From an uncultured Gammaproteobacteria bacterium (GTDB taxonomy: Bacteria > Pseudomonadota > Gammaproteobacteria > DRJJ01): a stretch of 64,000 nucleotides of DNA. Under the pieces are notes generated by a model. The model was not told where the DNA came from and made no database searches. It saw only the letters and a program-made list of their open reading frames with translations. A program made the translations under genes and the position numbers. The stretch covers positions 62,001 to 126,000 of the forward strand of contig CAMYJU010000005.1 in assembly GCA_947258795.1 (NCBI GenBank). The letters run 5' to 3'. Of this stretch, positions 37,343 through 42,281 are shown in pieces; the first letter of the stretch is position 1, and each line of letters begins with the position of its first letter.

Positions 37343-37432
37343 ATCTAACGCTTAAGGTCAGCTAACGGGCAACACAGAGCAGAGCGAAGCGACGCAGTGT
37401 GTTGACCGGTCAGATGCAGCGTATTGTTATGT
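37343..37432 (-). other. attC recombination site, overlapping a stop codon
   Basis: A 90-base site read on the minus strand: R'' ACATAAC (37432-37426) to R' GTTAGAT (37349-37343), with long imperfect complementary arms between. R' fits the GTTRRRY consensus exactly. The TAA stop of the upstream cassette ORF lies inside R''. Confidence 0.85.
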
Positions 37433-37905: not shown

Positions 37906-38340
37906 CTATTGTGCTTTTCGTTCTTCCATCAACAGTCTACCTAGCTTAGTCAGCATCAATCTTTCACTCAACTCTATAACATGACCCTCAGGAAGTGTCT
38001 TTATCAGACCAGCATTACGAATAGGACGAACCCACTCAAAGTCTTCACCCCCAGTTCTTAAATTTAGTCCTTCTTCTTTGACTGAGACTCCGCCTTTATT
38101 TTGGATCTTTTCTAATAGGCTCCATTGCTTCTCTGTAAGTTCTTCCTTGAATGTTTCAGATAGACTCTCTGTTAATTTTCGGGCACTTGTTTCGATCGTC
38201 ACGCCATGCATAGCAAATTTAACGTTTGACTTTTTGATTAATTCAAGCAGTGGTTCGCGAAATGAGACCAATCCAACCGTTATCAATAATGGCCAAATGA
38301 GCACCTCTATATATCGCACAATAATTTCAGCGGTTTGCAT
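37906..38340 (-). CDS. Cassette-borne hypothetical protein with one N-terminal membrane span
   Basis: A 144-residue protein with one hydrophobic segment (about 8-27) and a mostly soluble, charged remainder that may contain a winged-helix-like part (about 70-140: LTEKQWSLLEKIQNKGG, then VIELSERLMLTKLGRLLM). Its ATG is preceded by GGGGAG and lies 23 bases after the core GTTAGGC of the attC that an IS has split. Function is unknown. Confidence 0.65.
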   Translation of the reverse strand: MQTAEIIVRYIEVLIWPLLITVGLVSFREPLLELIKKSNVKFAMHGVTIETSARKLTESLSETFKEELTEKQWSLLEKIQNKGGVSVKEEGLNLRTGGEDFEWVRPIRNAGLIKTLPEGHVIELSERLMLTKLGRLLMEERKAQ

Positions 38341-38529
38341 CTATATCTCCCCAATGCTGTTCGCCTAACGAGGCTGTAGAAAAACCGACTTATCCAAACC
38401 CGTATTCCAGCCACCAATTATTAAATTTGAGATTCATCTACTTTGCCCGAATTGATGATGCTATTCAAGCATTCCATGTTCGTCATGTGGCCCATTGGCC
38501 GGTATTCTTAAGTTTCTCTATGTTATGTA

Positions 38530-39870
38530 TCAATCAATACAGTTGCCATTGCCCCTGGACCTTGCGTTTACCCCGCAAGCTGAATCGATTGAGACGTTTG
38601 TTCGTGCCAATGTTTCCAAACACCGGTTCGACGTCGTGCCAATGTTTCCAAACACCGGTTCGACGACCGACATTCGATGACTGTAGATAAGTTTACCTTT
38701 GTCCGTGTCGACACGTCGCTTCATCCAGTCGGTGTAGGTTGGGACACGCTGGCCTTTTTTGAGAATGAACGATACCTGTCTGCCATGCCCTTTCCGGTGA
38801 TCGGCGGATGCAGGGTTACGCATGCACCGCTGTTTGATATCACAGGCCCGGCATTTGGTTAAGCGACCTTCAAAAAAGACTTTGTCATGGCCATGCTTGT
38901 CCTTGCCTTCATGATGCAACCACATGGCGTGTCCCGCCGGAGCATAACCGGTATCAGCGGTGACAATGGGTTTATCCAGTTTGATACCAAGTCGTTTAAA
39001 ACGATCGCGGACGCTATTTAATACCGGTTGTAAGGCGTGGTGCTCCTGGCCTTCTCCGAAAGCCTGTGCGTCGATAATAATCTGATGTTTCATATCGACC
39101 GTGGCAATACCGTTGTATCCCTGTATCGTGCCTTTACTGGTGGCTATCTTGGCACTCTCTTTATCGGTAATGTTACTTTTGACTTCCTTTTTTATTCGGC
39201 CTTTGACCATCCGTGGGCTGTTTGACTTTAAAAACCGGTCTATCTTCTCGTGTGCCTTTGTGAGGGTTTCGATGGCCTGTTCTGCTCGCTGTCGGCGTTC
39301 TTCGTCACGTGATTCGTTTTTGTCTAATTTTTTATGCTCCGTAATATGATGGTGTATCTGGCGCTGTATCTTCTCACGCTTTTGTGTCAACTCTTTGTGG
39401 GTGCCAGACCATTCCTTCGATGCATTTGAGGGCATTTTACAGCCATCAATCGCAAAGAGTTCTTTGCCTAATAAACCCTGTTCGTCACAAATCAGTAAGA
39501 CTTGCTCAAACAAGGCTTCAATTTCATCGCTATAACCACTCACAAAATTAGCGATCGTCGTGAAATGTGGCACCGTATCACATGACAGGGCCTTGAACAG
39601 GATGTTGGTGTCGCAACTCCACTGGATTTCGCGGCTTGAGATGATGCCTTTTGAGTAGGCAAACAAAATAATCTTTAGCAGGATCGCCGGATCATAAGCT
39701 GGCCGTCCGGTATCTTCATTATTATACGTGGGATGGAAGATCGATAAATCCAGTTTGTGTTCTATTAAATAGTGGATCGCATGTTCAAACGTGCATGGTT
39801 GTAACTGATCGGCATAATTCACAACCACCATCCTGCTTTGGTTTGGATTATAGGGAATAAATTTCGGCAT
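38530..39870 (-). pseudogene. IS1182 family transposase with frameshifted C-terminus
   Basis: A DDE transposase with MPKFIPYNPNQSRMVVVNYA at the start, DUF772-type N-terminal region, IDGCKMPSNASKEWSGT, TADTGYAPAGHAM and MRNPASADHRKGHGR, then VEPVFGNIGT. A 32-base tandem duplication (38602-38633 and 38634-38665) shifts the frame after this point. Reading past it restores the expected NKRLNRFSLRGKRKVQGQWQ, but a TGA stands where Cys is normal before LIHNIEKLK. ATG 39870 has AGGAG upstream. The duplicated part lies after the catalytic core; activity is unlikely but not excluded. Confidence 0.8.
38602..38665. repeat. 32-base perfect tandem duplication inside the IS1182 transposase
   Basis: Two identical adjacent 32-base copies, starting tcgtgccaatgtttcc and ending ggttcgacg, at 38602-38633 and 38634-38665. 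Because 32 is not a multiple of three, the transposase frame is broken. Confidence 0.95.
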
Positions 39871-40036
39871 TGGCACAACTCCTTGTAGTGTGGAGTCATT
39901 TTAACAAAAACAGAAAGGCTTTTGATCTTTTTCTACAGCCTCAACGGTATGCATAAAGGGCCCGAGCGTAAGCGAGGTCCCAGCCCGCGTTTACCGCGGG
40001 CGATTTTGATGCAATGGTTATATTTTGACTCTACTC

Positions 40037-40303
40037 TCAATTTGAAACACCAAGAGCACTTGAAATATCTTTAGCGGCTTTAGCCAATCCCTCTCTGTCT
40101 AGAACAATATCGAAGGCCTGAGTAAGCACCTGCTCAATTGATTTCTCCACCTTGAATGGACCAGACAGAATGCCAATAGTCGAAATAATATCTATCGCTT
40201 CATAACGGTAACCGTCCAATGCGTCAATGGTGTTAGCCGCCTCACCCAATGGATTCCACGCTTCCAAAACACCCGCTACACGTTTTATCATTTCTTCTTG
40301 CAT
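40037..40303 (-). CDS. Cassette-borne small protein, DUF1871-like
   Basis: An 88-residue soluble, mostly helical protein. The opening VAGVLEAWNPLGEAANTIDA and DGYRYEAIDI recall DUF1871-type proteins, a loose resemblance. Its stop lies 14 bases from the R'' box of the split attC, so it is the cassette to which that site belongs. Function is unknown. Confidence 0.65.
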   Translation of the reverse strand: MQEEMIKRVAGVLEAWNPLGEAANTIDALDGYRYEAIDIISTIGILSGPFKVEKSIEQVLTQAFDIVLDREGLAKAAKDISSALGVSN

Positions 40304-40830: not shown

Positions 40831-40854
40831 TATTGTCTCCTTATTTATTTTATG

Positions 40855-40947
40855 GCCTAACAACGTTTGAGTTAACTTGACCGCAAAAGTAGAGTGTAGT
40901 GAAACGAAACGGCGCTTTTGTGGGTCAAGTTGGACGATTTGTTATAC
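40855..40947 (-). other. attC recombination site, best preserved of the array
   Basis: A 93-base site read on the minus strand: R'' GTATAAC (40947-40941) to R' GTTAGGC (40861-40855). The inner arms CAACTTGACCCACAAAAG and CTTTTGCGGTCAAGTT pair almost fully, with one unpaired base, as expected for a folded attC bottom strand. Confidence 0.9.
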
Positions 40948-40967
40948 ATTTTTTAATTTACAGACCT

Positions 40968-41030: not shown

Positions 41031-41162
41031 AAGTATGTATAGACATAATGACTCCCCGCTTGAAGGGAGCCGATCTCCGTCCTACGTGGATTAGCTGCAA
41101 AGCAACCAGTGCCATAAAATAATGAAGGTATGACCCATTCATTAACAGGATCGGAGATCGAC

Positions 41163-42281
41163 ATGAAAAAATCTAACACACTTTTTATCGGATTAGATGT
41201 GCACATGGAATCTATTGTAATTTCAATGGCTGATGACCACAATGGCGAAGTCCGTCGTTATGGCAAGACCGGTGGCTGTCTATCTGATTTTAATAAAATT
41301 TTACGTAAATTAGTCTCAACAGGTAAGAATCTGTTCTTCTGTTATGAGGCAGGTCCCTGTGGCTACGACCTGTATCGCTTTATTATTGCGCAAGGTCATC
41401 AATGCATCGTCGTGGCACCTTCACTTATCCCTAAAAAACCTGGAGATAAAGTAAAAACCGACAAGCGAGATGCAGACCAGCTTGCTCGTCTCTTACGCGC
41501 CGGTGAGCTGACACCTGTCTATGTGCCCAATGCTGAAGATGAGGCCATTCGTGACCTCAGTCGTGCCCGTGAAGATGCACTACTGGTACTCAAGTCTGCC
41601 CGACAACGTTTGAAATCCTTTTTACTGCGTCACAATATCCGATACTCAGGCACAGCCAACTGGTCCGAGACACACCTGCGTTGGCTGGCCGATGAGGTCC
41701 ATCTACCGTTTGCTGCACAAAAAATTGTTTTCCAAGAATATCTCAATACCGTCACCGAATCCAAACATCGTCTTGTCAGACTCGAACAGGTGATTATCGA
41801 TCATACCCAACAATGGCGACTGTACCCGGTGGTCGAGTCGCTTATGGCCTTAAGGGGTGTCAAGATGGTTGTCGCCGTTACGATCGTGGCAGAATTTGGT
41901 GATCTGACCCGTTTTGAAAACCCCAAACAGTTAATGAGCTTTCTTGGCCTGACGCCTTCTGAACACTCTTCCGGTGATCGACAAAAACGTGGACCTATTA
42001 CAAAAACCGGTAACCAGCATGCCAGACGCGTTTTAATTGAAGGGGCCTGGTCGTATCGCTTCCCGGCAAAAGTCAGTCGTCAAATGCAGAAGCGTCAGGA
42101 AAATCTTCCGCTCAATATTCGCGATATCGCCTGGAAGGCACAACTTCGTTTAACCCGTCGGTTTCAAACAATGGCCATGCGCGGAAAACCCAGTAATGTC
42201 ATTGTCGTTTCGATCGCACGTGAGCTGGCTGCATTTATGTGGGCCATTGCGCAGGAAGTGCCTATACAGACAGCTGATTAA
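41163..42281 (+). CDS. IS110 family transposase
   Basis: The 372-residue recombinase has the RuvC-like DEDD N-domain (FIGLDVHMESI, FCYEAGPCGYDLYRF, KTDKRDADQLARLLRAGEL) and the C-terminal transposase_20 part (LMALRGVKMVVAVTIVAEFG, FLGLTPSEHSSG, GNQHARRVLIEGAW with the Ser region). All four acidic positions appear present. ATG 41163 has GGAG upstream; the frame is open from 41130. It is intact, so this copy could be mobile. Confidence 0.93.
   Translation: MKKSNTLFIGLDVHMESIVISMADDHNGEVRRYGKTGGCLSDFNKILRKLVSTGKNLFFCYEAGPCGYDLYRFIIAQGHQCIVVAPSLIPKKPGDKVKTDKRDADQLARLLRAGELTPVYVPNAEDEAIRDLSRAREDALLVLKSARQRLKSFLLRHNIRYSGTANWSETHLRWLADEVHLPFAAQKIVFQEYLNTVTESKHRLVRLEQVIIDHTQQWRLYPVVESLMALRGVKMVVAVTIVAEFGDLTRFENPKQLMSFLGLTPSEHSSGDRQKRGPITKTGNQHARRVLIEGAWSYRFPAKVSRQMQKRQENLPLNIRDIAWKAQLRLTRRFQTMAMRGKPSNVIVVSIARELAAFMWAIAQEVPIQTAD

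Follow-up and report, generated by a model that had tools for sequence, protein, structure and literature searches.

An insertion sequence (IS) of the IS1182 family lies inside the R' core of an integron attC site in the stretch of DNA analysed here (the window, 64,000 nucleotides of contig CAMYJU010000005.1 of an uncultured gammaproteobacterium), and excision of the IS together with one copy of its target repeat restores the attC. Comparison with related elements makes it very probable that the IS is a member of a separate clade within the IS1182 family, here called IS1182-attC, in which the element's own DDE transposase directs insertion to C|GTT(A/G) in the R' core of attC sites, with a fixed orientation and a short target repeat. 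Judged by sequence comparison, the exact insertion site, the orientation, the clade, the repeat, the preference for attC, the occasional use of a bare CGTT and the re-use of cores can be taken as demonstrated. Targeting of attC by IS1182 elements is apparently undescribed: a literature search for links of IS1182 with attC or integrons, whose reach did not extend to subscription papers, preprints or ISfinder, rendered nothing relevant. The published invaders of attC sites are the IS1111-attC elements and the group IIC introns (PMC11187229, PMC9229058, PMC7923331), beside which the elements described here are a third kind of attC parasite.

An insertion sequence within a split attC

On the forward strand, the sequence runs from TTCGCCTAAC (to 38369) into the start of the IS, GAGGCTGTAGAAAAA, and from the end of the IS, TTTTTCTACAGCCTC (to 39942), into AACGGTATGCATAAAGG; GCCTAAC stands immediately before GAGGCTGTAGAAAAA and AACGG immediately after TTTTTCTACAGCCTC. 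The terminal inverted repeats, located at 38370-38384 (3' end of the IS in the transposase sense) and 39928-39942 (5' end), are perfect, with 15 of 15 bases matching. The IS is on the reverse strand and measures 1573 bp (38370-39942) if the target repeat is AAC (3 bp), or 1572 bp (38371-39942) if it is AACG (4 bp, CGTT on the reverse strand), the two copies of which occupy 38367-38370 (38367-38369 in the 3-bp reading) and 39943-39946. Read on the reverse strand, the split attC consists of R'' ATATAAC (40023-40017), L'' CATTGCATC, a long hairpin, L' TGCATACC and, past the 3' end of the IS, the R' core GTTAGGC (38369-38363), at the place where the 3' flanks of the relatives also start with GTT. 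It is an attC of the ordinary type; the break separates GTT from L', GTT or CGTT is found on either side, and the interval 38363-40023 spans exactly the IS and the split attC. The original prediction, that the IS sits exactly in the core of an attC and that removing it with one AAC rebuilds the site, agrees with both the junctions and the perfect 15-bp ends.

The transposase and the cassettes on both sides of the IS are all on the reverse strand. The attC remnant (39943-40023, reverse strand; L', variable stem, L'' and R''), together with the GTTGAGG of the IS end, is still scored as an attC. The covariance model described below matches the window at 39939-40023 (reverse strand), ending at the IS junction, although this match is weak (16.1 bits, E 0.89).

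The insertion site in related elements

A set of 80 relatives was taken from GTDB genomes by the transposase alone, regardless of the insertion site. In every relative with both ends located the flanks are CGTT, IS and GTT, except on the 3' side of one element (L083), and the arrangement ...CGTT-IS-GTTA/G... has identical orientation throughout. When all loci are considered, GTT forms the end of 97 distinct 5' flanks, preceded by C in 97 of 97, and the start of 100 3' flanks; among the ends matching the terminal repeat in at least 14 of 15 bases, two break the rule, both of them belonging to L083. Four out of four loci found later, out of sample (one viral contig and three genomes), follow the same rule.

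Two earlier attC scores (duplex energy, and helix length or constrained fold) were too weak, and a covariance model built from 27 reconstructed targets was used instead, with a covariation score of 0.37 vs. 0.07-0.10 for slid controls. The R''/R' and L''/L' pairing, with covariation, and the core GTT are present across the targets of these 27 relatives. For 65 of the 96 distinct insertions the attC located by the model ends precisely at the IS, and an exhaustive scan added 12, rendering 77 of 96. The 231 matches found in the 80 loci are all on the transposase-sense strand; there are none at the 3' junctions of the ISs, nor on the outgroup control loci at E up to 1. Apart from two tandems, 17 insertions remain, some of which look attC-like by eye, such as L012 and L082, which share the long attC type of L010. 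The two tandems have the form IS-CGTT-IS (L133 of genome G241 and L069 of Marinobacter xestospongiae); in them the second IS has re-used the core beside the resident copy, and the RRRY half of R' is therefore dispensable.

Several observations weigh against this picture. The sites used to train the model were occupied ones and had been pre-selected by a folding score, a caveat softened by the fact that the model also recognises unoccupied attCs in these arrays, 170 in number, of which 165 have CGTT. About 11 of the 96 insertions are at CGTT cores with no detectable attC (L023, L052, L078, L015, L017, L018, L030, L110, L130, L131 and L134), although the attC of L015 may have been lost to another IS. 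Three of these copies, at CGTTA, lie within genes whose joined frames match YnfA/UPF0060 (L023, Arsukibacterium ikkense), the oxidoreductase domain Pyr_redox_2 (L052, a Halomonas metagenome-assembled genome) and a lipocalin domain (L078, Salinibius halmophilus). Finally, the window's own site was not detected in a naturally empty state in any of 56 relatives; the search led only to a homologous attC of another genome (G044, E 1.2e-7), which is unoccupied and has an unbroken core.

Since there are insertions without an attC, three of them inside genes, the attC is preferred but not required, and a bare CGTT core can be used; CGTT(A/G) is near-obligatory and the attC strongly preferred. The outcome that would have refuted the original prediction, other copies in unrelated sites, was for the most part not observed: about 10% of the copies are at CGTT without attC (three genic), the majority (at least 77 of 96) being in attCs. 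The three genic copies are useful natural controls for core-only targeting.

The length of the target repeat is probably 4 bp (CGTT), the 3-bp GTT being the minimal reading. The 4-bp reading is favoured by the C that precedes GTT in 97 of 97 flanks, by the last base of the IS, which is C in 84 of 85, and by the 4-bp repeats of other IS1182 members, which the same scan located at exactly the same place: CTAG (most of one large subgroup), GGCC, GGTC, AGTA and TGCC. As its first base the IS has G in 89 cases and C in 11; the last base is C also in the nine elements with a first C, where pairing is impossible. In the large subgroup (L137-L139, L144, L146, L147, L151, L155, L156 and L095) CTAG is found on both flanks, apparently as a fixed 4-bp target.

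A separate clade of the IS1182 family

The decayed open frame of the window transposase (38530-39876, reverse strand) contains the Pfam domains DUF772 and DDE_Tnp_1_6. Its nearest full-length relative, L163, scores 274.5 bits against NCBIfam NF033551 (IS1182), whose cut-off is 270, vs. 183.7 bits for the window copy, so that the IS1182 assignment in the original prediction is borne out by full-length relatives. Residues D142 and D306 are invariant and E473 is conserved in >90% of 30 relatives; in our reading they would make up the catalytic DDE triad. The terminal inverted repeats of the relatives mostly match in 14-15 of 15 bases. When 54 transposases were placed in a maximum-likelihood tree, a single branch (support 100, length 2.2 changes per column) separated the CGTT/attC elements from all 20 other IS1182 members. 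Identity to L163 goes down to about 35% within the clade. The other members (20-31% identity) are located at different kinds of site and have 4-bp repeats, CTAG for example. One origin of the attC trait is the simplest account. The clade is widespread in marine Gammaproteobacteria, with Marinobacter, Halomonas, Billgrantia, Rheinheimera, Arsukibacterium and Microbulbifer among the hosts. A search of PLSDB plasmids rendered almost exclusively distant IS1182 members, and a search of viral contigs one clade member. No solved structure related to the transposase was found by sequence search, and an AlphaFold model (pLDDT 67, pTM 0.37) was too poor and was left unused.

The window copy itself is a dead relic of an attC insertion. 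Compared with its nearest full-length relatives, 79% identical over the first 342 residues, its transposase has lost ~200 nt in mid-gene and has a shifted C terminus, and a perfect 32-bp tandem duplication (38602-38665) that covers the conserved VVEPVFGNIGT motif shifts the frame. The genome has three copies in all, every one at an attC; the two others, partial or diverged, are on contigs C39 and C3, and each begins directly after the GTT of an attC. An integron integrase is found on C39, 0.6 kb from the IS copy. Its gene (G000:C39:5465-6441, L161), with an IS copy of the same clade in its array, is split into two frames, so that the integron integrase of this genome is broken or misassembled. 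The search that located it detected no integrase on the contig of the window, which makes the window array a cluster of attCs with no integrase beside it.

The IS1111-attC elements, whose targeting of attC is documented (PMC11187229), as the original prediction also says, belong to the IS110 family (ISKpn4, ISPst6) and share with the clade a fixed place and orientation in the cassette attC. Their transposase, however, is of the DEDD type and is guided by a seekRNA that derives from a noncoding region (PMC11187229), whereas here a DDE transposase of the IS1182 type fills nearly the whole element, the terminal repeats are perfect and the target repeat is short. The window element has no DEDD (IS110-type) transposase; it works like IS1111-attC elements and is not a member of the group. 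Group IIC-attC introns also insert into attC in a fixed orientation (PMC9229058, PMC7923331), but they are retroelements (ribozyme plus reverse transcriptase) usually placed opposite to the cassette genes (PMC9229058), while the clade consists of DNA transposons that run in the direction of the cassettes. Within the IS1182 family, IS1272 and TnSha1 likewise have stem-loop targets (PMC5678879, PMC4923244); IS1272, though, removes part or all of the hairpin, makes no target repeat and has no common target sequence, whereas the clade keeps the attC arms, has CGTT/GTT on both sides and uses a near-invariant CGTT core. A close parallel in function is offered by the ISAjo2-type elements of the IS1202 family (PMC10132070), DDE ISs homing in one orientation to a tyrosine-recombinase site, pdif/dif, where they leave a short repeat. 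They are from a different family, though, and their insertion point is not inside an attC core but 5 bp beyond the XerC site of dif, where the repeat made is 5 bp long. An integron gene cassette, in turn, carries its own attC at its 3' end, which the elements of the clade lack.

Recognition of the site and alternative explanations

According to the mechanism that we propose, the transposase itself would read the attC, probably folded (as a cruciform or a single strand), together with the CGTT core; it would cut 4 bp apart around CGTT and join the IS ends there, making a short CGTT repeat. The direction of the transposase is that of the cassette genes. The upstream attC would keep R'', L'' and L' plus a GTTGAGG core and may still recombine, and the IS would become the 5' part of the following cassette. 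Recognition of the folded hairpin is inferred from the hairpin targets of IS1272 and TnSha1, from the weakly conserved primary sequence of the attC arms of the targets, and from two palindromic sites: that of ISPpu20 (L094, plasmid pWW53), where the IS occupies the loop of CCCGCC-TTAAT-GGCGGG, a hairpin resembling a terminator, and the loop is present twice, and that of L151, in the middle of a long palindrome. We hold only tentatively, at somewhat less than an even chance, the complete proposal that the clade transposase reads a core of four bases plus the folded attC, a structure also read by the integron integrase (IntI), that the attC stays usable after insertion, and that each struck cassette becomes a larger, IS-bearing one that IntI can still move. 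No shared IS-plus-cassette units in differing contexts, which would be a sign of IntI moving the composite, were found.

It could also be the case that only the core is recognised, as double-stranded CGTT(A/G) or perhaps GCGTTA, the attC being struck as its carrier and insertions elsewhere being purged by selection; a bare core, GCGTTAGGC, would then serve as well as an attC. The near-invariance of CGTT at the junction, non-attC sites included, fits this explanation, as does the same C before GTT in 165 of 170 unoccupied attCs. Nevertheless, a genome of this size would have ~10,500 CGTT(A/G) sites (extrapolated from the window frequency), far above the number of attCs. Even inside the arrays, whose cassette DNA can for the most part be dispensed with, attC cores make up 42% of the CGTT(A/G) sites vs. 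at least 77 of 94 insertions at attC (p ~4e-15 in a rough test, as the 94 insertions are not all inside arrays). This excess argues that the attC context adds specificity, and we regard recognition of the core alone as unlikely.

IntI cuts attC cores at G^TT. Capture of the IS by IntI as a gene cassette would thus account for an insertion point that is one base off the IntI cut, for the fact that the IS plus one GTT is exactly the excision unit of IntI, and for the G^TT at both borders of the inserted unit. A captured cassette would, however, have an attC at its 3' end, and the absence of model matches at any 3' end of the ISs led us to reject this candidate; some copies, moreover, are in ordinary genes, the 4-bp repeat pattern is common to other IS1182 elements, and the group has its own DDE transposase and conserved ends. 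Capture is accordingly very improbable. The original prediction had considered either chance or a preference for folded or palindromic DNA. The idea that an IS1182 element without target preference came to lie in this single attC by chance was rejected and can be given practically no weight, since at least 77 of 96 insertions among the relatives are in attCs, at the same base and in the same orientation, and all three copies in the window's genome are at attCs. Insertion at the attC core by the clade's own transposase is thus the explanation that we prefer. It would represent an independent convergence on attC from the DDE world, in a family already known for striking hairpins; it makes structure-guided DDE targeting directly testable with the well-understood attC mutants, and it offers a safe-haven explanation for the life of ISs in cassette arrays.

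Some other features of the array are as follows, the first four on the reverse strand. The cassette that owns the struck attC has an open reading frame of 88 amino acids (40037-40303), and the cassette that follows immediately downstream of the IS has one of 144 amino acids (37906-38340), neither of them with a Pfam match. An adjacent unoccupied attC of the same array is at 37343-37432 (22.4 bits, E 0.035). The core of another unoccupied attC, at 40853-40866 (ACGTTGTTAGGC), has an extra GTT, as imprecise excision of an IS would leave; it was the single case obtained when the excision footprints CGTTGTTA and CGTTCGTTA were sought in attC cores, and it may be natural variation. Beside this attC (40853-40950) lies an IS110-family element (41130-42281), which is represented elsewhere in the genome by decayed pieces only.
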